A stretch of DNA of 64,000 bases from an uncultured Roseicyclus sp. Lineage in GTDB: Bacteria; Pseudomonadota; Alphaproteobacteria; Rhodobacterales; Rhodobacteraceae. Position 1 is the stretch's first letter. Each line of letters starts with the position of its first letter. The DNA is taken from assembly GCA_947500415.1 (NCBI GenBank), contig CANMRT010000002.1, positions 372,001-436,000 of the forward strand, written 5' to 3'. The position numbers and the translations under genes are program-made. A model generated the notes under the pieces. The model made no database searches. It saw nothing but the letters and a program-made list of their open reading frames with translations, and had not been told where the DNA came from. This document shows, piece by piece, positions 11,041 through 27,671 of the stretch.

Positions 11041-12251
11041 GTATGCTCCGCCGAGGGTTCGTAACCGGTCCGGTGATTGGCGCCTTGTGGATGCTGGTGC
11101 TGTCCGTGACAGTCGCAGTTGCGATGTCATTCGCCACGGGCGAGGCATTCCGCCCAAGCGTCTCTCTATCCTTGCTTTGGGGTGGAATCGCTGGCGCGGC
11201 CACAGTTGCCGTCAGACAATCCCGGGTGGCGCAAATCGGCGTGGTTTTGGTCGTTGTAGCACTCACTCTGCTCGACATCGGTCCACTTCAGTTAGGCGAA
11301 GCGACCAGCATGTTTGCCCGCATTACCGGCGCGACCCTGCTTGCGGGCGGTTTTGCAATCTCGCTTGTGCCCATCCTTGATGAGATCACGCCAGGCGCGC
11401 TGGGTCGTCATGAGTTTGAGGCCGCGGTTATCCGGTTTCTGACCGGCTTTGGGTACATCTATTTCACCGCCATCGTGATGATCCCGTTCTACGTCATGGT
11501 GATGACCAGCCTGAAAAGCCAGTCCGAGCTCATTCAGAACCCACTCGATTTCTCGATTGACCTGTCGCGGGGGACGGATCTCTTTCGCTCGTATCAAGAG
11601 CTGTTCGCCGACTTCAACTTCGGCACCTACCTGTTGAATTCTTTCTTCATTTCGGTCCTGACCGTCTTCATCACGCTCGCCTTCGCCATCCCCGGTGCCT
11701 ACGCGGTGGCGCGTCTTCGGTTCCGCGGTCAGGCCGCGTTCTCAAGATCAATTCTGTTGATCTACATGGTTCCGATGATCGTTCTGGCACTACCCATTTA
11801 CATCGCGTTTTCGCTGACGGGCTTGCGCAATTCGTTTGTCGGCATCGTCATGATCTATCCCGTCACCACGATCCCGGTCGCTCTGTACATGTTGCAGGGC
11901 TATTTCCGGGGGTTGCCCTCGGAAGTGGAGGAGGCGGGATTGATGGATGGGCTGAGCCGGTTGGCGGTGATCTGGAAGATCACTTTGCCACTTTCGCTCC
12001 CCGCTTTGGCTTCGGTGTCGCTCTACGTCTTCATGATCGCCTGGAACGAGTTCTTGCTGGCATTCATGCTGCTTGACGACCCCTCCCGGTTCACCCTGAC
12101 CCGTGGGATCGCGGCGCTGAACTCGTCGGAGATCCCACGACAACACCTGATGGCGGGGTCAGTCATCGCAACCGTCCCCATCATGGCGCTGTTTTTGTGC
12201 CTCGAAAAATTCATGACCAAGGGCCTGACTGCAGGTTCGGTCAAAGGATAA
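11037..12251 (+). CDS. ABC sugar permease (MalG-like) with N-terminal helical extension
   Basis: An inner-membrane permease of 404 aa, compared with about 280 for an ordinary MalG-like subunit. The extra roughly 125 residues at the N-terminus contain four predicted helices (about 12-34, 42-58, 65-82 and 96-114). The regular core starts with GYIYFTAIVMIPFYVMVMTSLKS and carries the EAA loop EEAGLMDGLSRLAVIWKITLP. It pairs with the upstream permease (ATGA overlap) and the ATPase at 13515-14540. Extended permeases are known in the AglG group of alpha-glucoside transporters, but the role of the extension is not established. Confidence 0.87.
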   Translation: MSMLRRGFVTGPVIGALWMLVLSVTVAVAMSFATGEAFRPSVSLSLLWGGIAGAATVAVRQSRVAQIGVVLVVVALTLLDIGPLQLGEATSMFARITGATLLAGGFAISLVPILDEITPGALGRHEFEAAVIRFLTGFGYIYFTAIVMIPFYVMVMTSLKSQSELIQNPLDFSIDLSRGTDLFRSYQELFADFNFGTYLLNSFFISVLTVFITLAFAIPGAYAVARLRFRGQAAFSRSILLIYMVPMIVLALPIYIAFSLTGLRNSFVGIVMIYPVTTIPVALYMLQGYFRGLPSEVEEAGLMDGLSRLAVIWKITLPLSLPALASVSLYVFMIAWNEFLLAFMLLDDPSRFTLTRGIAALNSSEIPRQHLMAGSVIATVPIMALFLCLEKFMTKGLTAGSVKG

Positions 12252-12255
12252 CGCA

Positions 12256-13515
12256 ATGACAACTCTCAACGATCAAGCGCGTGCAATTCTCCGCCAAAAT
12301 GACCGGGGCGGCTATACCGTGCCGACAGCGGGTCTTTATCCGTACCAATGGAACTGGGACAGCGCGTTTGCCGCCTGGGGATTTTCTACATTCGATCTGC
12401 CGCGCGCTTGGGTTGAGATGGAGACACTTCTCGCTACCCAGTGGGACGACGGTATGGTGCCCCACATCATTTTTCATCAAGACGATCCTGGCTACTTTCC
12501 GGGCCCAGACGTATGGGCGACTGAAAAAACTCCTGCGACGTCAGGCATTTCTCAGCCGCCAGTCGCTGCAATCATCACTCGCTTGATGTGGGAGCAATCC
12601 CCTCAGGAGGGCCATGATCACATGGCCGCCCTCTATCCGAAATTGGTGAAATGGCACCGCTGGTGGCACGATATGCGCTGCACCCATGGCCCAGTTGCTA
12701 TCACCCATCCCTGGGAAAGTGGTCGCGACAATTGCCCCGATTGGGACGTCGGAATGGCTGGCGTCGATGGGTCAGACGCTGGACCCTACACCCGCCGCGA
12801 CACCGGACATGTGGACCCGTCTATGCGACCGGGGAAAGAGGATTATGATCGCTACATCGCGATGGTCAAGTTCGGCGTTAAGGTGGGTTGGGATCAGGCA
12901 AAAATAGTTGAAGACGGGCCATTCCTTATGGCCGATCCGGGTATCACCTTCATCCTGTTGCGTGCCCACGCAGACTTGGCGTTCATGGGGCGCGCCCTCG
13001 GCGAAGATGTGAGCGAGATTGAAGAGTGGGCGATGTCCCTACGCAATGCATTGCCGCTGATTTGGAACCCCGAACTGGAAGCATATGACGCCAAAGACCT
13101 GCGTACGGGTCGCTTTGCTGGCGTTCTTGGGTCGGGCGCGTTCCTGGCCTACCTCGCCGGTGCGTCGAACCCACAATTGGACGCGCAGCTGATCCGAGTT
13201 TGGGATGCCGTGCGATATGGTATTCCATCAGCTGATCCGCAGGCCGCCATCTTTGATCCTCGCCGATATTGGCGCGGGCCAACTTGGCCGGTGGTAAACG
13301 CGCTTATGGCTATCGGTCTGCGGGACTCCGGTCTGCTGGATCTGGAAAGCCGCCTGCGTGTTGAGACGGCCGCCTTGATCGAGAAACACGGGTTTTTCGA
13401 GTATTTCGACCCTATGGATGCGACCCCTTGTGGCGGTGATAGTTTCACATGGACTGCCGCCATTTGGTTGACGTGGGCAAATCAGGACCGTGACCAATTG
13501 GTAGGGGCAACGTGA
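12256..13515 (+). CDS. GH63/MGH1-like glycoside hydrolase (glucosyl- or mannosylglycerate hydrolase candidate)
   Basis: A 419-aa cytoplasmic (alpha/alpha)6-barrel glycosidase with no signal peptide. Recognisable family motifs are YPYQWNWDSAF (about 28-38), DDGMVPHIIFH (64-74), SGISQPPVAA (96-105), PWESGRDNCPDWD (152-164), YWRGPTWPVVNAL (338-350) and GFFEYFDP (379-386) followed by GGDSFTWTAA. Asp158 in ESGRDN and Glu382 in FFEYF occupy the places expected of the general acid and base in GH63 mannosylglycerate/glucosylglycerate hydrolases. It sits inside the transporter operon, 4 bases after the permease and overlapping the ATPase start (TGATG). Probable role: hydrolysis of an imported glycosylated glycerate or similar compatible solute. 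A different alpha-glycoside is possible. Confidence 0.75.
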   Translation: MTTLNDQARAILRQNDRGGYTVPTAGLYPYQWNWDSAFAAWGFSTFDLPRAWVEMETLLATQWDDGMVPHIIFHQDDPGYFPGPDVWATEKTPATSGISQPPVAAIITRLMWEQSPQEGHDHMAALYPKLVKWHRWWHDMRCTHGPVAITHPWESGRDNCPDWDVGMAGVDGSDAGPYTRRDTGHVDPSMRPGKEDYDRYIAMVKFGVKVGWDQAKIVEDGPFLMADPGITFILLRAHADLAFMGRALGEDVSEIEEWAMSLRNALPLIWNPELEAYDAKDLRTGRFAGVLGSGAFLAYLAGASNPQLDAQLIRVWDAVRYGIPSADPQAAIFDPRRYWRGPTWPVVNALMAIGLRDSGLLDLESRLRVETAALIEKHGFFEYFDPMDATPCGGDSFTWTAAIWLTWANQDRDQLVGAT

Positions 13516-14540
13516 TGTCGTCGATCGAACTGAAAGCTGTCGAAAAGTGGTTTGGAAACGCCCAGGTTATCAAAGGCGTCGACCTGACGATCGATGAAGG
13601 TGAATTCGTCATTTTCGTTGGGCCCTCGGGGTGTGGCAAGTCCACTTTGTTGCGCATGATCGCGGGTCTAGAGGAAACCTCACGCGGGCAAATCATGGTG
13701 GGGGGGCGCGATGCCACGGCTGAGCCTCCGAACAAGCGTGGCCTTGCGATGGTGTTTCAATCCTATGCCCTCTATCCACATATGTCGGTGCGCGACAATG
13801 TCGGCTTCCCGCTCAAATCCGCAGGTCTGCCGAAAGAAGAGATTGAGGCAAAGGTGAACGAGGCGGCCCGTGTTCTCAAGTTGGATAGTTACTTGAACCG
13901 GCGCCCCAAAGACCTGTCTGGCGGACAGCGCCAACGCGTTGCAATCGGTCGCTCAATCGTACGTGATCCAACCGCATTCCTGTTTGATGAACCCCTCTCC
14001 AACCTCGACGCGTCCCTTCGTGTCGAGATGCGGTACGAGATTGCCAAACTGCACCAGACCCTGAAGGCCACGATGATCTACGTGACCCATGATCAGGTCG
14101 AGGCAATGACTCTGGCCGACCGGATCGTGGTGCTTGAGTTCGGCAAGATCGCCCAGGTGGGCACCCCGCGCGAATTATACGAAAAGCCCGCGAACCTTTT
14201 TGTGGCGCAATTCATCGGCTCGCCCCGGATGAATGTGATGCCTGCGGACACAGTCAGTAGCGTCACGCTACCGACAGAAGCCAAAAGCCTTGGAATCCGG
14301 CCCGAACATATCACTCTTGTCGAGGCCGGGATTGGCCATCTGCAGGGGACTGTAGACGTTTTGGAATACCTAGGCGCGGATACCTTTGTAATCTGTGATT
14401 GCGGACGCGCGGGCCAAGTCACAGTGCGTGTGAATGGCGATGTCACTTTGGCGCCCGGGGAGCGCACGGGGCTAGCCTTTCAATCCGAGAATTTGCACGG
14501 CTTCGACAGCAACGGCCTTTCAACAGCACTTGTAGCGTAG
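13515..14540 (+). CDS. ABC transporter ATP-binding protein, MalK/UgpC family
   Basis: A 341-aa cytoplasmic ATPase that energises the sugar importer. Walker A GPSGCGKST, signature LSGGQRQRVAIGR, Walker B FLFDEPLSNLDA and the H-loop TYVTHDQ-like segment (YVTHDQVEAMTLADR) are all intact. The C-terminal TOBE-like regulatory domain is present (about residues 235-341, with IRPEHITLVEAG). ATG 13515 overlaps the glycosidase stop by one base (TGATG); the GTG at 13512 is an alternative start. It is the last gene of the operon. Confidence 0.92.
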   Translation: MSSIELKAVEKWFGNAQVIKGVDLTIDEGEFVIFVGPSGCGKSTLLRMIAGLEETSRGQIMVGGRDATAEPPNKRGLAMVFQSYALYPHMSVRDNVGFPLKSAGLPKEEIEAKVNEAARVLKLDSYLNRRPKDLSGGQRQRVAIGRSIVRDPTAFLFDEPLSNLDASLRVEMRYEIAKLHQTLKATMIYVTHDQVEAMTLADRIVVLEFGKIAQVGTPRELYEKPANLFVAQFIGSPRMNVMPADTVSSVTLPTEAKSLGIRPEHITLVEAGIGHLQGTVDVLEYLGADTFVICDCGRAGQVTVRVNGDVTLAPGERTGLAFQSENLHGFDSNGLSTALVA

Positions 14541-15234: not shown

Positions 15235-15277
15235 CGATAGGCCGCGCGAAACTCGCGGCCTATCGTTCTTCTTTTTT
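15235..15277 (+). terminator. Strong hairpin with T-run at the 3' end of the BCCT gene
   Basis: A 12-bp stem, CGATAGGCCGCG (15235-15246) / CGCGGCCTATCG (15254-15265), with a 7-nt loop is followed on the + strand by TTCTTCTTTTTT. This is an intrinsic terminator for transcription arriving from the left. The same hairpin lies just after the BCCT stop on the - strand, without a T-run in that direction, so it may also end or stabilise the leftward operon. Confidence 0.75.
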
Positions 15278-17090
15278 AAGCGTTCTTTGCGCGGATGCTG
15301 TCTCGGTACAGGGCCTTTACGAGCGAGATCATCATGAGAACCATCACGATGGTGAACGGCAGTGCGCCGATGATCATCGCGTTTTGAAGCGCTCCGAAGG
15401 GGTTCGAATCCGCCCCGCTGTTGCCCGCAACGATCAAGGTTCCGATCACGGCGGTCAGGATCACACCCCAGATGATGCGGTGCTTGATCCCGGTCTCTTG
15501 CTCGCCGCCGGACATGATGGTGTTCATCACCAGAATGCCAGAGTCCGCAGAAGTGACCAGGAAGGTCATGATCAGCACCACGCACATGATGGTGATGGCC
15601 GACAGGAACCCGCCCGAGATCATCTGCTCCAACGTGGCAAAAAGCTTGGCCGTATTGGTCGCCCCGATGAGAGAGCCCGCAGCGTCGCCGTTGAGTTCCA
15701 GATCAATCGCAGTGCCGCCCAGAATCGTCATCCACAAGAAGCAGACGATGGCAGGCGCGATGACGCAACCGAAGATGAACTCGCGTACGGTCCGACCCTT
15801 TGAGATACGTGCCAGAAACAGGCCAACAAAGGGAGAGAACGCGATCCACCACGCCCAGTAGAACGTGGTCCACCCGGCTTGCCAGCCAAACTGACGCCCC
15901 TGTTCACCGGCGGCATAAATCGCCGCGGCATCCAGGTCCGCGGCAGATGCGGGCAGGCCCTCGGTGAAGCCCGACAAGGAGCCCCATGGCGATGTGGCAG
16001 AGCCGTAGATGGCTGCAACATCTTCTGCAGGCAAGGCACTGGCGGCCTCAGGAAGCGCAGAGGCAAAGGCCTCGGACGATTGAGGGCCATAAGCGCCGAA
16101 CGACATCTGAACAAAGTTCAAGATGTAGTCGACCAAGCCGGTGCCGAACTGCGTCATCGCAAAGAGGAACGATCCGAAGAACACGAAGGTCAATAACAGG
16201 ATCACCGACAGAACCAGATTGAGGTTCGACAGGTATTTGATCCCCCGTCCAACACCGGACACGGCAGACAGGATCGACAGCGCCATGATGACAAGAAGGG
16301 CTGCAATCAGTCCGACGGTGCTGGGCTCAGGCGCCTCGGCATTGCCGTTCATCAGCCAGTCCATGCCCGAGACGGCATAGACGCCATCCACGAACTGGCT
16401 GACCCCGAAACCGATGGTCACGGAAACACCCAGGATCGTTGCAACAACACCCAGAACGTCCACGATATGGCCCAGAGGGCCGTTGGCGGCCTTGCCCAGA
16501 AGCGGCGTCAGGGCCGCGCGGATCGTCAGCGGCATGTCACGGGTGTAGGCGTAATAGGCCAGCGACAGGCCGGTCAGCACGTAGATCGCCCAGGCGTGGA
16601 AGCCGTAGTGCAGGAACGTGTAGCGGTAGGCCGATTGCACGGCCTCGGCCGAGTTCGCCTCAACCGCGCCGGACAGCACGACCGGGTTCGACCCCCAAAG
16701 GCCCAGAGGCTCGGCGGTGGCGAAGACCATCAGGCCTACACCCAGACCGGCACCGAACATCATCGAGAACCAGGAGAAGTTGGAGAACTCGGGCTTGGTG
16801 CCGGGCGCGCCCAACTTCTTGCCGCCCGTGGCGGGAATAAGCGCCAACGCGAACAGGAAGAAGGCAAAAACGCCGACCGAGATGATGTAGAAGCCGTTGA
16901 AGCCGTTCAGCAAGCTGCCGTTCACAGCCGACAGCACGCTGCTGGCATTGCCCGGCCAAAGAAGCGCCCAGATCACCAGGGCAACCATGATCGCCTTACT
17001 GATTAACGCAATGGGAAGGCTATAGCCTTCGTAGAAACCGGATGGAGCCTTTTCGATCTCCAAATCGGTGAAGGGTGGTTTGATCGTCAT
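15276..17090 (-). CDS. BCCT family betaine/choline/carnitine-type transporter
   Basis: An inner-membrane secondary transporter of 604 aa with about 12 helices. The BCCT hallmark WTTFYWAWWIAFSPFVG (from about residue 407) followed by LARISKGRTVREF is intact, as is the Gly-rich helix MMFGAGLGVGLMVFATAEP. The substrate class is quaternary ammonium or sulfonium zwitterions (glycine betaine, choline, carnitine, DMSP). The loop before the hallmark helix is long and Ala/Ser-rich (about 70 residues). ATG 17090 has GGGGAAA upstream; upstream in-frame codons are low-complexity leader. It is the last gene of the ALDH-dipeptidase-unknown-DUF3726 set (79 bp after DUF3726), so it probably imports that pathway's substrate. 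Confidence 0.9.
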   Translation of the reverse strand: MTIKPPFTDLEIEKAPSGFYEGYSLPIALISKAIMVALVIWALLWPGNASSVLSAVNGSLLNGFNGFYIISVGVFAFFLFALALIPATGGKKLGAPGTKPEFSNFSWFSMMFGAGLGVGLMVFATAEPLGLWGSNPVVLSGAVEANSAEAVQSAYRYTFLHYGFHAWAIYVLTGLSLAYYAYTRDMPLTIRAALTPLLGKAANGPLGHIVDVLGVVATILGVSVTIGFGVSQFVDGVYAVSGMDWLMNGNAEAPEPSTVGLIAALLVIMALSILSAVSGVGRGIKYLSNLNLVLSVILLLTFVFFGSFLFAMTQFGTGLVDYILNFVQMSFGAYGPQSSEAFASALPEAASALPAEDVAAIYGSATSPWGSLSGFTEGLPASAADLDAAAIYAAGEQGRQFGWQAGWTTFYWAWWIAFSPFVGLFLARISKGRTVREFIFGCVIAPAIVCFLWMTILGGTAIDLELNGDAAGSLIGATNTAKLFATLEQMISGGFLSAITIMCVVLIMTFLVTSADSGILVMNTIMSGGEQETGIKHRIIWGVILTAVIGTLIVAGNSGADSNPFGALQNAMIIGALPFTIVMVLMMISLVKALYRDSIRAKNA

Positions 17091-17169
17091 GTGTTTCCCC
17101 GTTTTAGTGTGCCGTTTTAAGGTATTCCCCCGGTGGTTGGCTGTCCGCCGGGGGTTTGGGTTGGTCGTT

Positions 17170-17820
17170 TTAGTCGTTGTCGGACAGTCCTGCGCCCGCC
17201 CCCAAAAGCCGCGAGGCTTCCGTTGCTGGTGCAAAGGTGCGTTGCGCAAATGTGTCGAGCCGCGCCCAGATTTCAGATGTGACGGTGCCGCGAAATCCTG
17301 GCCGCTGCGCAGGATCGGCACGCTTGTCGGTACGGCTGAAGGTGACAGTTTCGGCCTTGGGTGTGTTGAGGTCGCCCTGCGGGTCATCCACCCAGATGCC
17401 ATCGCCATCCGTGTCGATCCGCAGGCCTGCAAAGCTCACCCGTACGGGCTGACTAAGATGGATCGCAGCCCAAGCCGCAAAAGGGATGACCAGCAACGGG
17501 TGCGAAACATGGCGCGCATTGATGGCATCACCCTGCGCAAGCCGGTCCGCGCAATCGTTCAAGGTTGTGCCAAGGACCAGCGGGCAAAGCTCGCACGCGC
17601 GCGCGTGCCAGTCGCCGTCTAGCGAAACGGGGGCGACCTGCACATGGGGCACGCCATCATTTTTGGCCAGAACTTCACACAACAGCGCGGGACCGTTCAG
17701 GCCATGGGAGGCGAGCCACCGGGTGGCCCGCGCCGCTTCCTCCGCCATGCCCCACGACAAACCTGCGCCCCGCGCCGCACGTTTGGCATGTGCCGCTATT
17801 TCGTTGAGGGAATGGCTCAT
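17170..17820 (-). CDS. DUF3726 protein
   Basis: A 216-aa cytoplasmic protein recognised as DUF3726 by its N-terminal pattern (SLNEIAAHAKRAARGAGLSWGMAEEAARATRWL) and length. There is no signal peptide or membrane helix. The middle contains PLLVIPFAAWAAIHLSQPVRVSF. Function is unknown. Its start overlaps the stop of the 567-aa protein by 4 bases (ATGA), so the two are made together and may form one complex. The position between a dipeptidase/ALDH pair and a BCCT transporter points to metabolism of a betaine-like compound, which is an inference from context only. Confidence 0.8.
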   Translation of the reverse strand: MSHSLNEIAAHAKRAARGAGLSWGMAEEAARATRWLASHGLNGPALLCEVLAKNDGVPHVQVAPVSLDGDWHARACELCPLVLGTTLNDCADRLAQGDAINARHVSHPLLVIPFAAWAAIHLSQPVRVSFAGLRIDTDGDGIWVDDPQGDLNTPKAETVTFSRTDKRADPAQRPGFRGTVTSEIWARLDTFAQRTFAPATEASRLLGAGAGLSDND

Positions 17821-19520
17821 GCCTCGCCCCGCAGTGCCGGGGGGTACGACCAGTCATCGCCCTGAGCGGACGCCAGTTCATCGGCATAGGGTGCGTTGCC
17901 GAACATGCAGATGCGCACCCACCGATCCGAGCGGGGGTCAAAATGCGTGGCGCCAAAGAACGACAGTTTGCAGCGCAGCATATCAATGGGCAGCAGGTCC
18001 GAGCCGATGGTGTTGTCGCGGATCTCGGCATAGGGCGCGCGGTCCACCAGCTGCGCCCGGCGCACGCTATGGCGATGCTCGGGATGGGCCAGCAGGAAGG
18101 CCGCAAGCGTGGCATCTGGGCTTTGATCGGCCAATGCGGCGTGAAGCGCAGCCGCGTCGCGGCCCGGCGCGAGGGGTTGTTCATAGGGGGCGATGGGTTC
18201 CTCAAACCGTTCCCCCAGACGGGGTTCCAGTTTTTCTTTCGAGACATACCAGGCGCGGGCGCAATGGTCCTTTTGGGACCAGTCGATGCGCAGCGCCCAC
18301 CCGTAGGCGCGCTCCAGTATCGCGCGCAGAGCCGCCACCTTCATGGAGCCGTCGATGCGAAACGCACTGGCATCGGTATCCCTCATCTGATCGGCCAAAG
18401 GGTCAACCAGCGCGCCGTAGGGCTCCAGCATCAGCGACGCGAGACTCTCCTGAGCGTCTTCGCCCAGCGTCTCTTCAGCCCAGAGGAAAAGCCGGTTCCA
18501 CGGCTGCGCCGCAAGCAAGTCCGCACCCGCCACATGCTCGGCCAACAGGCGCAGGTCGGCGCGCAGCTGCGCCAGCTTGGCAATCTGGATGTCGTGGGCG
18601 GAGGACCAGATATCGGCGGAGACGATGGACCGCTCCAGAAGGTCCCGGAAGGTAGCGGCCTCGTCGCGGGTTGCAGCGGGCAGTGAGCGGACAACCGCAA
18701 TCGCCTGTTCCCGCGCAGCGATCCAATTGTTGAACAACATCGGGTGATTGATCACGAAGGGCGCCATGCCAAGCCCGGTGGAATTGCCGATCCCCATGCT
18801 GCGCGCGATGTCTGCGTCCAGCGTGACGGCCTGCGAGCCACCCCTAAGGTTCGCCATGTGCTGCACCAGATCGCGCACATAGGTGCGGATCAGGAACACC
18901 GACAGCATCTCAATCTGGAACGGGGCTGTGCATTCGGGACGATCCGCGATCATCTCACGATCTGCAGCGCCCAGTTTGCCAGAGCCGTAGACCGCCGTGG
19001 TCCGCATCAGGTAGCCGACCTTGGTGACCTCGTGCCGGTCAGGTTGCCGGCCTGCGGCAAGGCGCGAGACGACGTGATCCCACAACCTCACGGACCGATT
19101 TGCACGCGACACCGACAGTTCTTTTTCACTGACGCGGCCCGCCTCTTGCAGGGGGATATTGGCCCGTAGACGTGCGATATCGGAGGCATCTGGCACGCCA
19201 TCAAACAGGGTAAATGTGCTATCCCAACTGGTCGCGATCACGCGGTCCGAGCGCGCCTCTGCAGGCAAGTCAAAGCCAAAGGCGATCAGGGAATAGGTGC
19301 GATCAGGCGTATGCGCACAATAGACCGCGTGGCCCACGCCCTTGGCGTCAAAGTCAAAGACCGGACGCGAGAACTGCCAGTTCTCGCGGGTCATGCGACG
19401 GGTGAGGATACGCATGAAGGACAGGCGGGATTGGTGGAACGAGCCCAGACGCGACAGCCGCATGACGCGCGCAGGATCACGTTTGGCAATGCTTTGTGAT
19501 GTCTCCACTTGCTGCCGCAT
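17817..19520 (-). CDS. Uncharacterised 567-aa protein of the BCCT/DUF3726 cassette
   Basis: I do not recognise a named domain. The protein is soluble-looking (no signal peptide, no clear membrane helix), rich in Arg and acidic residues, and spans 567 aa from ATG 19520, which has an excellent GGGGGAGGG ribosome-binding site. Notable stretches are RMTRENWQFSRPVFDFD near residue 45, TAVYGSGKLGAADREM near 190, the Gly-rich SMGIGNSTGLGMAPFVINHP near 265 (which could bind a nucleotide or phosphate) and a conserved-looking C-terminus with CMFGNAPYADEL. It lies 15 bp after the dipeptidase gene and overlaps DUF3726 by 4 bases. By length it could be the catalytic core of the pathway. Function is not assigned. 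Confidence 0.75.
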   Translation of the reverse strand: MRQQVETSQSIAKRDPARVMRLSRLGSFHQSRLSFMRILTRRMTRENWQFSRPVFDFDAKGVGHAVYCAHTPDRTYSLIAFGFDLPAEARSDRVIATSWDSTFTLFDGVPDASDIARLRANIPLQEAGRVSEKELSVSRANRSVRLWDHVVSRLAAGRQPDRHEVTKVGYLMRTTAVYGSGKLGAADREMIADRPECTAPFQIEMLSVFLIRTYVRDLVQHMANLRGGSQAVTLDADIARSMGIGNSTGLGMAPFVINHPMLFNNWIAAREQAIAVVRSLPAATRDEAATFRDLLERSIVSADIWSSAHDIQIAKLAQLRADLRLLAEHVAGADLLAAQPWNRLFLWAEETLGEDAQESLASLMLEPYGALVDPLADQMRDTDASAFRIDGSMKVAALRAILERAYGWALRIDWSQKDHCARAWYVSKEKLEPRLGERFEEPIAPYEQPLAPGRDAAALHAALADQSPDATLAAFLLAHPEHRHSVRRAQLVDRAPYAEIRDNTIGSDLLPIDMLRCKLSFFGATHFDPRSDRWVRICMFGNAPYADELASAQGDDWSYPPALRGEA

Positions 19521-19535
19521 GGCCCGCCCTCCCCC

Positions 19536-20510
19536 TCAGATCATTGGTGTGAAATTTTCCGCGTAAAACCGGTGCCAGTTGTCTCCCATGATGCCCGCGA
19601 CTTCCCCGTCGCTCAGGCCCGTGGCGCGCAAACCCGCTTCGATGTTTCCAAAGTCACGGTTGTCGTTGAACCAGTGGGGCATTGCCGGAAACCCGGGTGC
19701 TGCAGCCGATCCCTCACCGTAGTCGATCTCTTTGGTCCAGCGGCCGACGCGCATCCATTCGACAACGCTGTCAGGCTGATCCTGGCAAAGGTCCGTCCCG
19801 ATCCCGAGGTTCTGCGGACCGAATTTATCGGCGGTGCGGGCAATCATCTCGCAGAAACTGTCCAGCGTGCAGTCGGACTTGCCCTTCAGGTGATGCGGAT
19901 AGACCGAGAAGCCCATCATCCCGCCGTTTTCCGTGACCGCGTGGATGACATCATCCTTCTTGTTGCGCAGCGCGGGCGACCACTCAAATGGATTGGCGTG
20001 GGTGATCGCGATGGGACGCTCGGAAATTTCCGCCGCCTCAATGATGGAGCGGTCGGCGGAATGGCTCATGTCGACCACAAGGCCCACGCGGTTCATCTCT
20101 CGGATCACCTGGCGGCCCATGCGGGTGATCCCGGTGTCCTCGGCCTCATAGCAGCCCGTCGCCAGCAGAGACTGGTTATTGTAGGTCAGCTGCATGAACC
20201 GCGCGCCAAGGGTGTGGACGATTTCGACCAGCCCGATGTCATCCTCGATCGGGCTCGGGTTCTGAAAGCCGAAGAAAATGGCGGTCTTGCCCTCAGCCTT
20301 TGCGCGGTCCACATCGCTGGCCCATTGCCCCTTGATGATCAGGTCGGGGTACTGTTCGAACCAGCGGTTCCACCGCTCAAAATTCAGCACCGTCTCGCGG
20401 AAATTCTCGTGATAGGCGATGGTGACATGGACCGCGTCCACGCCCCCCTCGCGCATCTGGCGAAAGATCTTTTCCGACCAATTGGCGTATTGCAGGTTGT
20501 CGATGAGCAT
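19536..20510 (-). CDS. Membrane (renal)-dipeptidase family protein
   Basis: A 324-aa amidohydrolase-fold enzyme of the peptidase M19 family. Family signatures are DAVHVTIAYHENF (in place of the usual HxD metal ligands near the N-terminus), FMQLTYNNQSLLATG, GLVVDMSHSADRSIIEAAEISERPIAITHANPFEWSPALRNK, GIGTDLCQDQ and MGDNWHRFYAE. The His in SHSAD and in THANP and the Asp in GTDL match expected metal or substrate positions. A close relative sits in the Pseudomonas glycine-betaine/dimethylglycine locus, where it is not a proven dipeptidase. ATG 20510 overlaps the ALDH stop by one base (TGATG); the GTG at 20513 is an alternative. It is probably a dedicated hydrolase of this cassette rather than a general dipeptidase. 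Confidence 0.8.
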   Translation of the reverse strand: MLIDNLQYANWSEKIFRQMREGGVDAVHVTIAYHENFRETVLNFERWNRWFEQYPDLIIKGQWASDVDRAKAEGKTAIFFGFQNPSPIEDDIGLVEIVHTLGARFMQLTYNNQSLLATGCYEAEDTGITRMGRQVIREMNRVGLVVDMSHSADRSIIEAAEISERPIAITHANPFEWSPALRNKKDDVIHAVTENGGMMGFSVYPHHLKGKSDCTLDSFCEMIARTADKFGPQNLGIGTDLCQDQPDSVVEWMRVGRWTKEIDYGEGSAAAPGFPAMPHWFNDNRDFGNIEAGLRATGLSDGEVAGIMGDNWHRFYAENFTPMI

Positions 20511-21961
20511 CACGCAGGCATGCCCGAGGCGACGTAGGCGGTCTTCACGATGGTGTAGAAATCGCGCGCGGTTTGTCCCTGCTCGCGCGGCCCGTAGGAA
20601 CTGTCTCCACGCCCGCCGAAGGGCACGTGGTAGTCCGTACCTGCGGTCGGCAGGTTGACCATGACGCAGCCCGCCTGCGCGTTGCGGCGGAAGTGGGTGG
20701 CACGGGCCAGATTGGTCGTCACGATCCCCGCGGTCAGGCCGAAGTTGGTGTCGTTGACCACATGCAGCGCCTCGTCATAGCTGGCGACAGAGATGACACA
20801 GGCGAGCGGGGCGAACATCTCTTCCCGGTTGATGCGCATGTCATTGTGGGTGCCGGCAAAGACGCCGGGGGACATGTAGTAGCCCTCGGTCGGCATCTCC
20901 AACCGCTGACCACCGCAAAGCAATTCCGCGCCTTCCGAGGCGGCCAGATCGACGTAGGCGAGGTTTTCATTCAATTGCTGCTCGGACACGACTGGGCCCA
21001 TCTGGGTACCCGCCTCCAGCGCGTGGCCGACCTTCATTGCTTTCGCGCCCGTAACCAGCTTTTCAACGAACTGGTCGTGGATGGAATGATGGACCACCAG
21101 ACGCGAGGACGCCGTGCACTTCTGGCCGGAGCCGCCGAATGCGCCGCCAAGCGCAAGCGAAACCGCCATATCGACGTCGGCGTCATCCATCACGGCTAGC
21201 GCGTTCTTTGATCCCATCTCCATCTGTACACGGGTCAGATTCTGGATCGCAGCGGCGGCGATACCTTTGCCGACAGGAACCGAGCCGGTGAAGCTGATCG
21301 CGCCCACCTTGGGGCTTTCCACCAGCCGCTGCCCGATGGCGCTGCCTGCGCCCATGACCAGCGAAACTAGGCCCTTGGGAACGTCCTGTCGCGCAATGAT
21401 CTCGACCAGTGCCACGGCAGAGGCTGGGGTGAGGTTCGCAGGTTTCCAGACCACCGCGTTGCCATAGCAGAGCGCGGGCGCAATCTTCCAAGAAGCAGTG
21501 GCAGTGGGGAAGTTCCACGGAGAAATGATCGCCACCACGCCCACGGCTTCGCGGCGTACGTCGATCTCGATCCCGTCGCGCACAGAATCCGCGGTGTCAC
21601 CCATCTGGCGAAGGGTCTCGGCCGCGTAGTAGGTGAAGAACTGCCCGGCGCGGTAGACCTCGCCCTTGCCCTCAGCCAGCGGCTTGCCCTCTTCGCGGGC
21701 CAGTAGGGTGCCAAGTTCCTCGGCGCGGGCCATCATCTCGGTGCCGATGGCCATCAACACGTTGTACTTCCGCTCGATCCCGTAGGCCGCCCATTCGACC
21801 TGCGCGCGTTGAGCCTGATCAAGCGTTGCATCAAGCTGATCCGGCGTCGCCTGCGCAAACATGCCCACCAGGTCGCTCAGATCCGAGGGGTTGCGGTTTT
21901 CGATCTCGGACGCACCCGCCACCCATTCGCCGGCGATGTAGTTCAGTTTGGTGTCGTGCAT
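20510..21961 (-). CDS. Aldehyde dehydrogenase family protein
   Basis: A 483-aa NAD(P)-dependent aldehyde dehydrogenase. The catalytic Cys lies in GGSGQKCTASSR, the general-base Glu in QMEMGSKNALAV, the cofactor motif in FTGSVPVGKGI, and the Rossmann entry in IISPWNFPTATASWKIAPAL. Motifs are closest to the ketoglutarate-semialdehyde/betaine-aldehyde-like branch, but the substrate cannot be read. The start has GGGGATACACC upstream. It is the first structural gene of the leftward operon, preceded at 22050-22067 by the putative LysR site. In this setting it may oxidise an aldehyde released from the BCCT-imported compound. It could equally serve the neighbouring demethylation operon by oxidising acetaldehyde. 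Confidence 0.87.
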   Translation of the reverse strand: MHDTKLNYIAGEWVAGASEIENRNPSDLSDLVGMFAQATPDQLDATLDQAQRAQVEWAAYGIERKYNVLMAIGTEMMARAEELGTLLAREEGKPLAEGKGEVYRAGQFFTYYAAETLRQMGDTADSVRDGIEIDVRREAVGVVAIISPWNFPTATASWKIAPALCYGNAVVWKPANLTPASAVALVEIIARQDVPKGLVSLVMGAGSAIGQRLVESPKVGAISFTGSVPVGKGIAAAAIQNLTRVQMEMGSKNALAVMDDADVDMAVSLALGGAFGGSGQKCTASSRLVVHHSIHDQFVEKLVTGAKAMKVGHALEAGTQMGPVVSEQQLNENLAYVDLAASEGAELLCGGQRLEMPTEGYYMSPGVFAGTHNDMRINREEMFAPLACVISVASYDEALHVVNDTNFGLTAGIVTTNLARATHFRRNAQAGCVMVNLPTAGTDYHVPFGGRGDSSYGPREQGQTARDFYTIVKTAYVASGMPA

Positions 21962-22049
21962 GGTGTATCCCCTTGATCCAGCGCAGCGCGCGCACGTGCA
22001 GGGTACCCCCTCAAGGCGTTTCAGGCTTTCAGAATGAATTGTAGTTTTA

Positions 22050-22067
22050 TTCAGGTTCGCTGAATTT
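22050..22067. promoter_or_regulatory. Putative LysR operator in front of the aldehyde dehydrogenase operon
   Basis: TTCAGGTTCGCTGAATTT contains the inverted repeat ATTCAG-N5-CTGAAT (counting the preceding A) and a T-N11-A core. It matches 15 of 18 positions of the site at 22959-22976 upstream of the LysR gene. It overlaps the last bases of lysR and lies about 90 bp before the ALDH start codon. Confidence 0.65.
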
Positions 22068-22956
22068 AGAGGTGTGGCAACAGGCTGCCATCACGCTTCA
22101 TGTCCATGATCAGTTTAAGAAACTCTTTCGCGGCGGGCATCAACATATGGTTCGGACGCGACATCAGATGCACGGTCCGCCGCGCAGCCACGTCGGCCAG
22201 CGGCAAGAACGCAAATTCATCCATCAGGTTCGCGACAACCAATTGGGGCAGAACAGTTATGCCTACCCCTTGTCGCACCAGACCCAACAAAGACGCCGTG
22301 TTGGGAACCATCAGCCTGGAGCGTGCCAGAATGGGCGCGAAATCCGGATCGGAGATTTGCGCGCACAGGCCATTTGCGATGATCGTCTGATCGCCAAGGG
22401 AGCGCCAGGTCAGTTGATCCCAGGTCTCTGCCAGCGGGTGATCTTTGCGGCACACCAGACCGAATGCGTCGCTGAACAATTCGGTGCGGCGCATCCCCTC
22501 GACCACGGGAAGGGAGCCAATCCCGATGTCGGCCCGCTCTCGGTCCAGTTCATCGGCGATTGTGGCGGAATCCATGTCGCGCAGGTCGATTTGAACCTTT
22601 GGATATCTCTGCGCAAATTTGTAAATCACACTGGGCAACACCGTGGTGGCCACCGAAGGGGTCACGGCCAACCGCAAAAAACCAAGTTCGGAGCGCGCCA
22701 ACCCCTCGATCACCGAGACCGTGTTTTCGAAGTGAGCGACCTCGCGGCGGGCCTCGTTCAAAATGAGTTCCCCGATGGGTGTCAGTCTGGATTTGCGTGC
22801 CGTCTCAAACAGGGCAGAGCCGACGTGATCCTCAAACTGCTTCAGCATCATGGACACCGCAGAGGGCGTCCGCCCAAGCGCCTCCGCGGCCTCAGACAGG
22901 CTGCCGTGGGTGGCAACCATCGTAAAACATCTGAGCATGTCGATCTTGATGGCCAA
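22066..22956 (-). CDS. LysR family transcriptional regulator
   Basis: A 296-aa activator/repressor with an N-terminal winged helix-turn-helix (MLRCFTMVATHGSLSEAAEALGRTPSAVSMMLKQ, residues 7-40), linker helix and type-2 periplasmic-binding-like effector domain (from about residue 90, FLRLAVTPSVATTVLPSV). It is transcribed in the same direction as, and 104 bp upstream of, the ALDH-dipeptidase-unknown-DUF3726-BCCT genes. Two near-identical 18-bp sites, one just before its own start codon and one before ALDH, make it the likely regulator of this cassette and of itself. The ligand is unknown. Confidence 0.9.
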   Translation of the reverse strand: MAIKIDMLRCFTMVATHGSLSEAAEALGRTPSAVSMMLKQFEDHVGSALFETARKSRLTPIGELILNEARREVAHFENTVSVIEGLARSELGFLRLAVTPSVATTVLPSVIYKFAQRYPKVQIDLRDMDSATIADELDRERADIGIGSLPVVEGMRRTELFSDAFGLVCRKDHPLAETWDQLTWRSLGDQTIIANGLCAQISDPDFAPILARSRLMVPNTASLLGLVRQGVGITVLPQLVVANLMDEFAFLPLADVAARRTVHLMSRPNHMLMPAAKEFLKLIMDMKRDGSLLPHL

Positions 22957-22976: not shown

Positions 22977-23171
22977 GAAAACGCGGAGTCCAGTTTGTCT
23001 CACTTCTTATCCCGAGACCACTAGCAATCACACCCGTCCGACCGGGGTGTCGCGCGACCATAAACGCAAGGAAATCCCGTCATCGACCGCATCGACACCG
23101 GCACACGGTCCTCGAATATCGTATAGCACTCTGGCGTGGCCTATCTGACCGGCCAGATAGGGCCGGTCCGG

Positions 23172-24326
23172 TTAGCTTGCCGTCGCAAGCGACTTCTTCG
23201 GGTCGTAGAACGGCATCGGCACGACACGGCAGGCCCGCGTCTCGCTCAACTTGTCGACCTGCAGGGCCGTATCCAGTGCCGTGTGATCGATGCCGATCAT
23301 CGCAAGTGCGATGTTCTTTTCCAGCCTTGGGGAATAGATCGCAGAGGTGACAGTGCCGACCTGCTCGCCATCTTTCAGGACAGGCCAAAAGAAATCGTTG
23401 GATCCAACAAAGGGATCGCCGTCAATTTCCAAGCCAACCAGCTGTTGGGACACGCCCTGTTCCTTGATCTTGGTCAGCGCGGCCTTGCTGACAAAATCCG
23501 CCTCCATGTCCAGATCGACAAGCCGATCCATGCCCAACTCGTAAGGGTTGTTCGCCAGCGTCATATCCGCGTGGTAGGACAACATGCCCGCCTCGATCCG
23601 GCGAATGCTCGACGTGTGGCCGGGCTTCAGCCCCAAGGGGGCGCCAACGGCCATCAGATGCTCCCACAGCCGGTCGCCCTGCGATCCATCGCGCAGGAAA
23701 ATCTCGTACCCCAATTCGCTGGTCCAACCCGTGCGCGAAATGATCAAGGGCACGCCGTCCCAGTCATATTCCATGAAGCGGTAGTATTTGAGTTCTGTCG
23801 GGGCATCGCCAAAGGCCGCGCGCAGGATGTCGCGAGATTTGGGGCCCTGCAATTGCAGGGGTGACACGTCGGGTTCGGAAATCTCGACATCCATGCCGGC
23901 ATTCACCGCAATGCCGCGGGCCCAGAGCAATACGTCACTGTCGGCAATCGACAGCCAGAAATGATCCTCTGCCAGTTTCAACAGGATCGGGTCGTTGATG
24001 ATCCCGCCGTGCTGGTCTGTGATCAGCACGTATTTGCATTGCCCGACCTGGCATTTCGACAGATCACGGCAGCTGAGGAATTGAGTGAACCTCGCCGCAT
24101 CCGGTCCCTTGATTTCAACCTGACGCTCGACCGAGACGTCACACAGGATCGCTTCATTGACGAGATTCCAGAAGTTCTGAACCGGATCACCAAAGTCGCG
24201 GGGGATGTACATGTGGTTGTAGACAGAAAACCCCTTGGCGCCCCAGCGCAGGGCCGCATCAGAATAGGGCGATTTACGGACCTGTGTGCCAAAGCTGAAT
24301 TGGGCAAAGTCGAGTTCGTGGGACAT
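23172..24326 (-). CDS. GcvT/DmdA-family tetrahydrofolate-dependent demethylase
   Basis: A 384-aa cytoplasmic enzyme of the aminomethyltransferase fold that would transfer a methyl or C1 unit to tetrahydrofolate. It reads closer to DMSP demethylase (DmdA) than to GcvT. Shared-looking stretches are GFSVYNHMYIP, CDVSVERQVEIKGPDAA, VGQCKYV, HGGIINDPILLKL, WLSIADSDVLLWARG and EPDVSPLQLQGPKS. In GcvT the tract GGI-x-DDL carries the catalytic Asp; here it reads GGIINDP, as in DmdA. The C-terminal barrel is complete. It is the last gene of a leftward operon containing a CoA ligase, hydratase and a methanethiol-oxidase-like protein, which supports an S-methyl substrate. DmdA-like paralogues acting on other methyl donors exist, so the substrate is inferred. 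Confidence 0.72.
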   Translation of the reverse strand: MSHELDFAQFSFGTQVRKSPYSDAALRWGAKGFSVYNHMYIPRDFGDPVQNFWNLVNEAILCDVSVERQVEIKGPDAARFTQFLSCRDLSKCQVGQCKYVLITDQHGGIINDPILLKLAEDHFWLSIADSDVLLWARGIAVNAGMDVEISEPDVSPLQLQGPKSRDILRAAFGDAPTELKYYRFMEYDWDGVPLIISRTGWTSELGYEIFLRDGSQGDRLWEHLMAVGAPLGLKPGHTSSIRRIEAGMLSYHADMTLANNPYELGMDRLVDLDMEADFVSKAALTKIKEQGVSQQLVGLEIDGDPFVGSNDFFWPVLKDGEQVGTVTSAIYSPRLEKNIALAMIGIDHTALDTALQVDKLSETRACRVVPMPFYDPKKSLATAS

Positions 24327-24352
24327 GGGGTGTATCCAGTATTAGTAAGGGG

Positions 24353-25960
24353 TCAGCTCTTGGAGCGGACCAGATCTCGGAGTTCGTTTTTGCGGATTTT
24401 CCCGGTGGTGGTCTTGGGCAGCTCGCCGAAAATCACCTTCTTGGGGCGCTGATACCCAGCAAGCCGGGCCTTGGCGTGGGTTAGCAGTTCGGCCTCGGTG
24501 GCCTCGCCGGATAGCTCGACAAAGGCGCAGGGCACTTCGCCCCATGTCTCGTCCGGCATCGCCACAACGGCGCAGAGGCTGACAGCAGGGTGTGAATAGA
24601 GCGCCTTTTCCACCTCGATGGAGGAAATGTTCTCCCCGCCAGAAATGATGATGTCCTTGGCCCGGTCGCGGATTTCGATGTAGCCGTCCGCGTGCTGCAC
24701 CGCGATGTCGCCGGACCAGAACCAGCCATCCTTGAAGGCTTTGGCAGTCTCTTCGGGGGCTTTCAGATAGCCTTTCATGACGATGTTGCCGCGAAACACG
24801 ATTTCGCCCAGGGTTTCGCCATCCCAAGGGACTGGCATGCCGGTATCGGGGTTCAAGACCAGCACGTCTTCCTGCAACTCATAAGCAACGCCTTGGCGGG
24901 CCTTCAGGGTCGCCTGTTCCTCTGGTGGCAAGTCCGCCCAAACGGGCTTTTCCGCGCAAACGACAGCGGGGCCGTAAACCTCGGTCAGCCCATAGACGTG
25001 CGTGATAGAAATCCCCATCGCTTCCATCCCGGCAATGACGCTGGCAGGCGGCGGGGCGGCGGCGGTCATCATCTTGATCTTTTGTGGAAAGTCGCGCTTC
25101 TCCGCCGCACCCGAGATCATCGACATGATGATCGGCGCGCCGCACAGATGCGTGACCCCGTGATCGGCAAAGGCGTCATAGATCGCGTCCGCCCGAGGGG
25201 CGCGCAGGAACACATGGGTTCCAGCCAGCATGGTGATCGTCCAGGGAAAGCACCAGCCGTTGCAGTGAAAAAGCGGCAGCGTCCGCAGATAGACCGGATG
25301 GTGCGGCATCTCCCAGGTGACGACATTGTTGACCGCATTGGTCCAGGCACCGCGATGGGAATAGACCACACCTTTCGGCCGCCCCGTGGTGCCGGAGGTA
25401 TAGTTCAGCGCCAGCGCGTCCCATTCATCATCCGGCAAGGCATAGGCGAAGTCCGCATCGCCTTCGGCCAGTAGGGCATCATAGGTCAGGTCGCCGATTT
25501 TCTCACCGCCCGGGCCTTCGCGATCCTCGATATCAATGACCAGCAGATCACGGCCCGATTGCGCCACTGCCTCGGCGGCGAGCGCTGAAAATTCGGTATC
25601 GACCAGCAAAACTTTGGCCTCACCATGGTCCAGAATGTAGCTGATCGTGCCCGCATCAAGCCGTGTGTTATTGGCATTCAAAAACGCACCCAACATGGGC
25701 ACCGCCAGCGCGCATTCCAGCGCCTCGGGGATGTTTGGCGCAATCAGGGCAATTGTATCGCCCTTGCCAATGCCGCGTTTGGCCAACGCAGAGGCCAGCC
25801 GTTTGCAGCGCTGCGCGACCTCACCCCAATTGCGCCAGATGCGGCCATGGATTTGAGCAGGCAGCTCAGGATGCACCCGTTCGACGCGCTTCAGGATCGA
25901 AACAGGGGACAGGGCCGTGTGGTTTGCCGCCGTGCGGGCAAGCTCCGCGCCCTCGTACAT
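24353..25960 (-). CDS. Acyl-CoA synthetase (AMP-forming), DmdB-like
   Basis: A 535-aa adenylate-forming CoA ligase. The P-loop-like motif YTSGTTGRPKGVVYSH, the A5 motif VYGLTEVYGP, the hinge GDIAVQHADGYIEIRDRAKD and the C-terminal Lys motif KTTTGKIRKNELR are all intact. In DMSP demethylation DmdB activates methylmercaptopropionate; length and operon context fit this, but many medium-chain acyl-CoA ligases look alike. The start is uncertain between ATG 25960 (overlapping the hydratase stop as TGATG, with GGAGA 4 bases upstream) and ATG 25963; a GTG at 25975 has no ribosome-binding site. The gap to the demethylase is 26 bp. Confidence 0.8.
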   Translation of the reverse strand: MYEGAELARTAANHTALSPVSILKRVERVHPELPAQIHGRIWRNWGEVAQRCKRLASALAKRGIGKGDTIALIAPNIPEALECALAVPMLGAFLNANNTRLDAGTISYILDHGEAKVLLVDTEFSALAAEAVAQSGRDLLVIDIEDREGPGGEKIGDLTYDALLAEGDADFAYALPDDEWDALALNYTSGTTGRPKGVVYSHRGAWTNAVNNVVTWEMPHHPVYLRTLPLFHCNGWCFPWTITMLAGTHVFLRAPRADAIYDAFADHGVTHLCGAPIIMSMISGAAEKRDFPQKIKMMTAAAPPPASVIAGMEAMGISITHVYGLTEVYGPAVVCAEKPVWADLPPEEQATLKARQGVAYELQEDVLVLNPDTGMPVPWDGETLGEIVFRGNIVMKGYLKAPEETAKAFKDGWFWSGDIAVQHADGYIEIRDRAKDIIISGGENISSIEVEKALYSHPAVSLCAVVAMPDETWGEVPCAFVELSGEATEAELLTHAKARLAGYQRPKKVIFGELPKTTTGKIRKNELRDLVRSKS

Positions 25961-26769
25961 CATTCTCCGGTCCACTCGGGCATCGCTTCTTTGCGGGTGA
26001 AGGCCCCGATCCCGGCCTCAGCATCTTTGGCCATCATGTTTTCGGCCATCGTGCGACCGGCAAAGGCATAGGCGTCTTCCAACGACATCTGGGCCTGTTC
26101 ATAAAAGGCGCGCTTGCCGATCTTGACGGCAGAAGGGGATTTTTCGGCGATGATACGGGCCATTTCCATGGACGTTGTTTCAAGTTCTGACAACGGAACC
26201 ACGCGGTTGACCAAGCCCATGTCTGCGACACGTGCGGCCGGCAGGAATTCCCCCAACAGCAACATCTCCATCGCGAATTTACGCGGCACATTGCGCGACA
26301 AAGCGACCATCGGAGTCGAGCAAAACAGCCCGATATTCACGCCAGATGTGGCAAAGGTCGCATCCGTGGCGGCCACGGCCAGATCACAAGACGCGACCAG
26401 CTGACACCCCGCGGCTGTGGCGATGCCCTTGACCTCGGCGATCACCGGTTGCGGCAAGCGTACCACGCGCAGCATCATCGCCGAACAGGTCGCAAACAGG
26501 TCCTGAAAATACTGGAACCCACCGTCGGCATCCGCGCGGCGTGCCGACATTTCCTTGAGGTTATGACCGGCGCAGAAATGGTTTCCGCCGCTGCGCAGGA
26601 TCACCGCCTTGACGCTGCGATCTTCGGCGATCTTGTCGAATGTTTCGGACAACGCCTGCAACATCGCCTCGGACAAGGCGTTGATCGATTTGGGCGCGTT
26701 CAGCGTCAGGACGGCTACGCCATCAACGTTCGTGCGCAGTATGAGATCCTTTTCCAAATTCTCAGTCAT
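25960..26769 (-). CDS. Enoyl-CoA hydratase/isomerase family protein (ECHDC3-like)
   Basis: A 269-aa crotonase-fold enzyme. Oxyanion-hole segments are FCAGHNLKEMSA and KGIATAAGCQLVASCDLAVAA, followed by FATSGVNIGLFCSTPMVALSR, a pattern typical of the ECHDC3-like branch. The usual catalytic Glu pair is not obvious: the second position falls in the GVNIGLFC region. In the operon it occupies the place of DmdD/AcuH, the hydratase that releases methanethiol from methylthioacryloyl-CoA. That role is an inference. The start ATG 26769 is chosen because the longer frame upstream reads through the neighbouring gene. It overlaps the CoA ligase. Confidence 0.8.
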   Translation of the reverse strand: MTENLEKDLILRTNVDGVAVLTLNAPKSINALSEAMLQALSETFDKIAEDRSVKAVILRSGGNHFCAGHNLKEMSARRADADGGFQYFQDLFATCSAMMLRVVRLPQPVIAEVKGIATAAGCQLVASCDLAVAATDATFATSGVNIGLFCSTPMVALSRNVPRKFAMEMLLLGEFLPAARVADMGLVNRVVPLSELETTSMEMARIIAEKSPSAVKIGKRAFYEQAQMSLEDAYAFAGRTMAENMMAKDAEAGIGAFTRKEAMPEWTGE

Positions 26770-26804
26770 CTTACGATTTCTCCAACGCAGGTTTTCGACG
26801 ACGA

Positions 26805-27269: not shown

Positions 27270-27272
27270 AGG

Positions 27273-27671
27273 TCAACGCTCCTTTCCTTGCCCTATCGCT
27301 TCGCTGCTTGAGGGCCGTGGCACGGCGATATCCGCCTTCAATTCGTGAGGTTGGAGCGGATCAAGAAACGGGTTCCGATAGAGCCGGTCATGGCTCTCAA
27401 CCCCGATCTCCAGCGTGATGTCGGACGTTGCCCGCGCCACGCAGAGGATCACATATCCGTTCTCAATCTGCCGGTTGTTCAGCGCCACTTGACGTCGCTG
27501 ATCCACGTCACCATCGGTGAGCTTCGCCGCGCAGGTGATGCAGCCGCCATATTCGCAGCCATAGGGAAGATCGACGCCCTGGTCGCGCAACTGTTCCAGC
27601 AGCGGGCGGCGGGCATTGACCGCATAGGTCGCGCCGTCGCGGTTGGCGATGGTGACGGTATGGGTCGTCAT
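27273..27671 (-). CDS. [2Fe-2S] plant-type ferredoxin
   Basis: A 132-aa electron carrier. The cluster ligands are in LPYGCEYGGCITCAAKL (C-x4-C-x2-C) and YVILCVA about 28 residues further, the classic plant-type pattern. A C-terminal extension of about 30 residues beyond the usual domain ends in a charged tail. ATG 27671 overlaps the stop of the preceding selenium-binding-protein gene by 4 bases (ATGA). Its placement directly after a methanethiol-oxidase-like gene suggests an electron-transfer partner for an enzyme of this operon, or for an oxygenase elsewhere. No reductase or oxygenase lies within the operon. Confidence 0.88.
   Translation of the reverse strand: MTTHTVTIANRDGATYAVNARRPLLEQLRDQGVDLPYGCEYGGCITCAAKLTDGDVDQRRQVALNNRQIENGYVILCVARATSDITLEIGVESHDRLYRNPFLDPLQPHELKADIAVPRPSSSEAIGQGKER

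Follow-up and report, generated by a model that had tools for sequence, protein, structure and literature searches.

A conserved operon of the Rhodobacteraceae encoding an unclassified 567-aa protein is a likely homarine catabolic operon

Organisation of the operon

The window, i.e. the whole stretch of 64,000 nucleotides analysed here (contig CANMRT010000002.1, positions 372,001 to 436,000, from an uncultured Roseicyclus sp.), carries an operon at positions 15276-22956 of its minus strand, which encodes a LysR-type regulator, an aldehyde dehydrogenase (ALDH), an M19-like hydrolase, a protein of 567 amino acids (aa), a DUF3726 protein and an importer of the BCCT family. The operon is conserved and real, its gene set looks catabolic, and we consider it likely that it is the bacterial operon for catabolism of homarine (N-methylpicolinic acid), a pathway already in print.

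The regulator gene (22066-22956) starts with TTG, and its product matched the Pfam models HTH_1 and LysR_substrate. It is followed after 104 bp by the gene for the 483-aa ALDH (20510-21961; Pfam ALDH, 6.1e-150), whose stop codon is overlapped by the ATG of the gene for the M19-like hydrolase of 324 aa (19536-20510; PF01244, 2.6e-70). After a further 15 bp comes the gene for the 567-aa protein (17817-19520), which represents an unclassified family, and its stop codon is in turn overlapped by the ATG of the DUF3726 gene (17170-17820; 216 aa; PF12525, 5.7e-25). The gene for the 604-aa importer (15276-17090; PF02028, 3.7e-148) lies 79 bp further on. A previous reading made from the letters and open reading frames alone (the sequence-only reading) had described a set of co-directional genes with coupled starts and their own LysR gene, including a 567-aa protein that is devoid of recognised domains and coupled to DUF3726, and both descriptions are borne out: the genes are all present on the minus strand, and the 567-aa protein gave no match in Pfam or NCBIfam.

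The Pfam scan covered the six operon genes and three neighbours, and neither a Rieske-type demethylase gene nor a dimethylglycine oxidase gene was found among them. In the NCBIfam scan the DUF3726 and M19-like proteins were likewise left without a match. The importer matched the model betaine_BCCT at 418 bits, below the cut-off of 650 for this glycine-betaine equivalog.

Conservation and distribution

When GTDB genomes were scanned with the 567-aa protein, 31 loci were obtained, which belong to named roseobacters or to entries labelled no further than Rhodobacteraceae or Alphaproteobacteria, and the genome from which the window derives holds a second copy that is 62% identical. Within the family of the window the protein was found in 134 of 295 genomes (its own included), one of them by a weak fragment only. 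With a profile of the 567-aa family, 53 of 385 genomes from the same class were positive, four of these having a size of 1.2-1.4 Mb, as were 21 of 299 genomes drawn from the phylum, eight of the 21 belonging to other classes. Moreover, 168 of 72,556 plasmid records carry the family, mostly from Sinorhizobium (64) and Phaeobacter (58) as judged by name, the others including Aminobacter, Shinella, Caballeronia and two Vibrio. A relative with 30% identity is present in the archaeon Natrinema.

To describe the surroundings of the gene we used 86 loci: 30 of the 31 from the GTDB scan, the second copy of the own genome, 54 further neighbourhoods and the window. Genes in the fetched neighbourhoods were called by script, and L-numbers are the locus labels of this analysis; the 567-aa proteins of L009 and L083 are identical. 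In 80 of the 86 loci an M19-like gene was found no more than seven genes away from the 567-aa gene. A DUF3726-type gene lies within three genes in 77 loci by sequence and in three more by position only, with none in the remaining six, and 75 loci have both companions. The gene-neighbourhood survey that the sequence-only reading had proposed thus shows the clustering to be conserved. A LysR gene is near in 47 loci, and in 52 an ALDH gene lies on the same strand within three genes of the 567-aa gene; these 52 are referred to as ALDH-type loci. Mapped on the family tree of the 567-aa protein, the ALDH label requires eight changes, against 26 when shuffled.

Every ALDH-type locus contains the M19-like gene, 44 have near it a LysR gene from the same cluster as that of the window, and 39 have either a BCCT importer or an ATP-binding cassette (ABC) importer of the glycine-betaine type. 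The gene list proposed for the window holds as far as it goes, but 44 of the 52 also have Ldh2 or RidA near (Ldh2 in 20, RidA in 26, both in two, neither in eight). Of the eight loci outside the class, seven are ALDH-type, with LysR, BCCT and RidA; in the betaproteobacterium Caballeronia this set is accompanied by the DUF3726-type gene.

In two loci from genomes of about 1.4 Mb (L105 and L106) the operon is ALDH-type and is accompanied by an ABC importer of the glycine-betaine type, by both Ldh2 and RidA, and by a DmdA/GcvT-like gene. The archaeal relative (L140, 12127-14657) is located on a plasmid of Natrinema versiforme, with ALDH and BCCT transporter genes near, and the gene next to it encodes 317 aa scoring 36.2 with PF02615, just under the cut-off of 38.8.

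The 567-aa protein and DUF3726

Pfam, NCBIfam and the PDB give no function to the pair formed by the 567-aa protein and DUF3726. Among 56 diverse members of the 567-aa family, searches of Pfam and NCBIfam returned only scattered weak matches. These members share 26 invariant columns, seven of which are Gly and six Arg, with no Cys and no His. A search of the PDB with the family profile gave only weak helical matches, the best (E 0.02) being to a helical stretch of V-ATPase subunit C. An AlphaFold2 model of the protein has a mean local confidence (pLDDT) of 78.6 and a predicted template modelling score (pTM) of 0.84, its least certain parts being the two ends and the loops 93-96, 179-191, 248-250 and 426-447. 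Foldseek found no fold match for this model in the PDB (best E 0.41) or among viral models (best E 0.59). A profile test for kinship of the 567-aa protein with Ldh2 or DUF3726 found none.

With regard to DUF3726, the AlphaFold2 model (pLDDT 89.8, low in the last 20 residues) matched YiaK (1s20) in Foldseek with E 2.0e-4, probability 1.00 and a TM-score of 0.57 by query, and ranks 1-25 were all Ldh2-type entries. The profile of the family also matched Ldh2 (E 6.2e-6, probability 85%). The single-protein predictions that had been suggested at the outset gave DUF3726 an Ldh2-type predicted fold and left the 567-aa protein without a counterpart in the PDB. DUF3726 is predicted to have the fold of Ldh2 (PF02615, which includes YiaK and delta1-piperideine-2-carboxylate reductase) in truncated form, its length being 216 aa against about 334 for Ldh2. 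The His of the SHG motif is present in only 22 of 62 DUF3726 sequences, compared with 28 of the 31 members of the Ldh2 cluster, and because this residue is not conserved, DUF3726 is probably a truncated, non-catalytic relative of Ldh2. DUF3726 was not found in the literature searched.

The M19-like protein and ALDH

The M19-like protein belongs by profile to the same family as the M19 membrane dipeptidases (PF01244), and its nearest solved structure is the amidohydrolase 2i5g, presumably from P. aeruginosa. The two families of proteins have in common two His, an Arg and an Asp of one metal site, and the corresponding H150, H171, R182 and D240 are kept in 83 of 83 aligned members. They differ in the HxD motif and a Glu, which we take to be ligands of the binuclear site in true M19 dipeptidases. 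The motif is replaced in the operon protein, with Leu6 in 79 and Tyr8 in 74 of the 83 members, and the Glu by Gln83 in all 83, Gln also standing against Glu in the alignment to 3id7. As judged from these replacements, the protein should bind one metal at most. Since the ligands of one metal site are missing, a function as dipeptidase is unlikely, and the protein was rejected as a classical M19 dipeptidase on account of L6, Y8 and Q83.

The sequence-only reading had likened this gene to one in the Pseudomonas betaine locus. With 2i5g as the nearest structure this resemblance may be real, but the ligands of one M19 metal site are missing. The Pseudomonas glycine-betaine locus (gbc/dgc) was itself rejected as a model for the operon, as the Pfam scan gave neither a Rieske demethylase nor a dimethylglycine oxidase.

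Of 62 aligned members of the ALDH, all 62 have the catalytic N150, 61 have E248 and all 62 have C282. The nearest curated models to the operon protein are those of 2,5-dioxovalerate and alpha-ketoglutarate semialdehyde dehydrogenases, which it matched at 481 bits, against cut-offs of 750 and 770.

Ldh2 and RidA at the operon

Among PDB entries the Ldh2 of the operon is nearest to the delta1-piperideine-2-carboxylate reductase 1wtj (192 bits, the next entry scoring 137.5), which we take to be a DpkA. Imine reductases of the DpkA class are used to make N-methyl amino acids. By their counts in the 52 ALDH-type loci, Ldh2 and RidA tend to exclude each other (Fisher p 8.3e-6 with kinship ignored). 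The substrates of RidA proteins are imines and enamines. The pattern is suggestive of Ldh2 and RidA being alternative fates of one imine or enamine intermediate, and is suggestive only.

The RidA proteins of the clade of the window are at least 84% alike where compared (L004, L005 and L032). Outside this clade identities fall to 41-43% (to the RidA of L085) and 23-36% (to those from other classes), and this drop suggests that the operon acquired RidA on more than one occasion. In the smallest starred clade that includes the window, ridA is near in 10 of the 12 other loci. The window itself retains a decayed remnant of about 27 codons at 23082-23162 of the plus strand (contig 395082-395162), between the LysR gene and a DmdA-like gene and ending just short of the latter; it corresponds to residues 2-28 at 74% identity and contains an internal stop. 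Elsewhere the own genome encodes a paralogue of RidA that shares 72-78% identity with the operon type, as well as an Ldh2 homologue with 39% identity.

Linkage to Mgd and the case for homarine

In five roseobacter loci (L016, L018, L020, L087 and Ruegeria sp. TM1040) the operon is adjoined by genes for a SoxBDAG-like tetramer, accompanied in all but L016 by an AraC regulator. The counterparts of the operon in P. inhibens and TM1040 are PGA1_RS18990-19015 and TM1040_RS02315-02345, respectively. The large subunits of these tetramers are 69-74% identical to one (L156) of three such proteins in the own genome. L156 is located near an AraC regulator and DmmA-family, second reductase-like, haem-demethylase-like and GcvT-like genes. 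N-methylglutamate dehydrogenase (Mgd) is a SoxBDAG-like tetramer, and the tetramer adjoining the operon is probably Mgd, a name given by synteny. The synteny is that of R. pomeroyi, in which dmm, the AraC regulator gene tmaR and mgd are adjacent and Mgd is the N-methylglutamate dehydrogenase, according to PMC13390433. Two tetramers were not counted as Mgd: that of Shinella, with identities of 51% to L156 and 50% to a further copy of the own genome, and that of L116, with 42-43%. The Shinella locus has an ALDH-type operon with Ldh2 and a glycine-betaine ABC importer, and purU is next in line, an arrangement that would agree, in this one case, with a formyl unit being released.

According to PMC13390433, homarine is a ubiquitous marine metabolite, and a part for Mgd in the catabolism of homarine (N-methylpicolinate) has recently been reported, for which it cites Ferrer-Gonzalez et al. 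2026 (Nat Microbiol 11:1531-1546, doi 10.1038/s41564-026-02313-7). Homarine is drawn down fast by R. pomeroyi, as described in PMC12817926, and for this reason roseobacters can be said to have a homarine pathway. A passage search of PMC13270143 (EMBO J), on import of dimethylsulfoniopropionate (DMSP), found no mention of homarine.

Because of its linkage to the Mgd-type cluster, the operon is the best candidate for the published homarine pathway. Besides this linkage, we count in favour of homarine the DpkA-like Ldh2, the company of Ldh2 and RidA, the betaine-type importer, and the nearness of the ALDH to C5-semialdehyde dehydrogenases. In the four ALDH-type loci that are linked to Mgd, Ldh2 is present in all four and RidA in none. 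The published homarine operon is reportedly named homABCDER, with N-methylglutamate as an intermediate, and a set of five structural genes and one regulator would match the make-up of the operon in the window. Homarine also agrees with the betaine-like zwitterion that the sequence-only reading had expected from the importer, which belongs to BCCT by PF02028. In contrast, the suggestion that the operon specifies an undescribed, new pathway is probably wrong, as judged from the homarine pathway in print that is cited in PMC13390433. That pathway, as cited there, and the operon both belong to environmental bacteria and concern a betaine-like zwitterion; the pathway involves Mgd, and a probable Mgd adjoins the operon in the five roseobacter loci. 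The window differs in that its operon stands apart from the probable Mgd, the orthologue L156 having another location in the genome, and in that only a remnant of its ridA is left.

Several observations weigh against the assignment. The tie to the published pathway is made through the citation in PMC13390433. Linkage to Mgd is confined to TM1040 and four of the 52 ALDH-type loci; in the window the operon has no Mgd beside it, and no intact ridA or Ldh2 either. Moreover, Mgd has a further role in the use of methylamine. The mutual exclusion of Ldh2 and RidA amounts to three changes on the tree, with p 0.5 in a kinship-aware pair test. A cofactor or O2 site is not recognisable in the 567-aa protein. 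Finally, ALDH is not within three genes in 34 of the 86 loci (two of them less than 4 kb from the end of their stretch), and 25 of these 34 keep the M19-like and DUF3726-type genes, some of the triads being beside DMGDH (6) or MttB (3) genes, which argues that the triad is not specific for homarine.

Proposed route and alternatives

The presence and linkage of the genes are observed, and each chemical step of the route set out below is inferred; the exact assignment of steps is tentative, and we would expect it to be wrong in part. LysR would sense the substrate or an intermediate, and the BCCT importer (elsewhere the glycine-betaine-type ABC importer) would take up the zwitterion. Together, the 567-aa protein and DUF3726 might then use O2 and a reductant to cleave the ring of the pyridinium at the C5-C6 bond, yielding an N-formyl-N-methylamino C5 aldehyde, a role assigned to the pair by elimination only. 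The aldehyde would be oxidised by the ALDH, and the one-metal M19-like hydrolase could take off the N-formyl group as formate, so that the N-methyl enamine or imine of 2-oxoglutarate would result. Where Ldh2 is present, this intermediate would be reduced to N-methylglutamate, which Mgd would convert to glutamate; with RidA it would be hydrolysed to 2-oxoglutarate and methylamine. In this oxygenase version the reaction balances as C7H7NO2 + O2 + 2[H] + 2 H2O -> C6H11NO4 (N-methylglutamate) + HCOOH.

The main rival to the oxygenase version concerns the steps and not the substrate. Here the ring of homarine would be opened hydrolytically, the M19-like protein adding water to the pyridinium in the manner of cyclic amidohydrolases, and the 567-aa protein and DUF3726 would carry out a later oxidation or C-C cleavage. 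In its favour, 80 of 86 loci have the M19-like gene in the company of the 567-aa gene, the M19-like protein retains one complete metal site (H150, H171 and D240), and neither Foldseek nor profile searches made an oxygenase signature visible in the 567-aa family. However, if C6 is lost as formate and C5 ends up as a carboxylate, an extra oxidation is needed, for which the operon offers no other enzyme, and we regard hydrolytic opening as less likely than not.

Alternatively, the operon could act on some other zwitterion, cyclic or N-methylated, such as trigonelline, stachydrine or pipecolate betaine, the imine being handled at the end in the same way. BCCT transporters accept several betaines, and the triad does occur in other settings, on S. 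meliloti pSymB as well as beside MttB-like, homocysteine S-methyltransferase-like and DMGDH-like genes in the own genome. Adjacency to the Mgd-type cluster, on the other hand, suggests that N-methylglutamate arises from the substrate, whereas the known trigonelline route ends in methylamine, formate and succinate, and a Rieske-type gene is absent from the genes of the operon in the Pfam scan. Trigonelline degradation by the Acinetobacter tgn system does resemble the route proposed here for homarine in its N-methylated pyridine carboxylate substrate, N-formyl ring-cleavage product and aldehyde oxidation, but Tgn includes a recognisable two-component flavin monooxygenase, of which Pfam found none in the window operon. 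Taken together, a different zwitterion as substrate appears improbable.

The triads in question are as follows. The second copy of the own genome (L034, 8692-18758) comprises M19-like, 567-aa and DUF3726 genes together with an MttB-family methyltransferase (PF06253) and a DMGDH-like protein and, as identified by eye, homocysteine S-methyltransferase-like and LysE-like proteins; as judged from these neighbours, it likely serves another N-methylated substrate. The triad of pSymB (L139, 11244-23165) is remote and stands with IclR-like, PotABCD-like importer and class III aminotransferase-like genes, an ALDH and two RidA-like genes, the names being assigned from resemblance to other loci and from inspection by eye, and may serve another amine.

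Two further gene groups were noted in the window. On the minus strand, 23172-29017 is a DMSP-type cluster next to the operon with a DmdA-like demethylase (380 bits, cut-off 410), an acyl-CoA ligase and an enoyl-CoA hydratase as well as, by eye, CoA-binding, 2Fe-2S and SBP56/methanethiol-oxidase-like proteins. On the plus strand, 7307-14540 encodes a probable sugar ABC importer and a 419-aa glycosidase-like protein, with a LacI-like regulator upstream (by eye). A further alternative is that the BCCT protein imports DMSP for the genes at 23172-26943, those for the DmdA-like protein, the CoA ligase and the enoyl-CoA hydratase, which lie directly upstream of the operon on the same strand. In its favour, dmd genes also adjoin the operon on P. 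inhibens pPGA1_262, and a DmdA-type gene does so in L032. This reading is very improbable, and the operon was rejected as a DMSP operon, as a DmdA/GcvT-type gene is near in only four of 52 ALDH-type loci (the window, L032, L105 and L106) and ALDH, M19, DUF3726 and the 567-aa protein have no known role in DMSP demethylation.

Implications

Beyond homarine, it is conceivable, although we rate it below even, that the 567-aa protein and DUF3726 constitute a new class of enzyme for opening N-heterocycles, which with the one-metal M19-like hydrolase would form a module for several N-methylated or cyclic amine substrates. Its 567-aa component would have a fold unmatched in the PDB and its partner would be a probably non-catalytic, Ldh2-like subunit. 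The hosts would be diverse Pseudomonadota and, in distant form, an archaeon, with the homarine operon as one instance and the copy of the own genome beside MttB and DMGDH as another.

Once the genes for homarine breakdown are fixed, this flux of carbon and nitrogen can be read from genomes, keeping in mind that 134 of 295 genomes of the family carry the 567-aa protein and that not every copy is ALDH-type. The pair of the 567-aa protein and DUF3726, together with the alternative of Ldh2 and RidA, provides concrete enzymes to assay.

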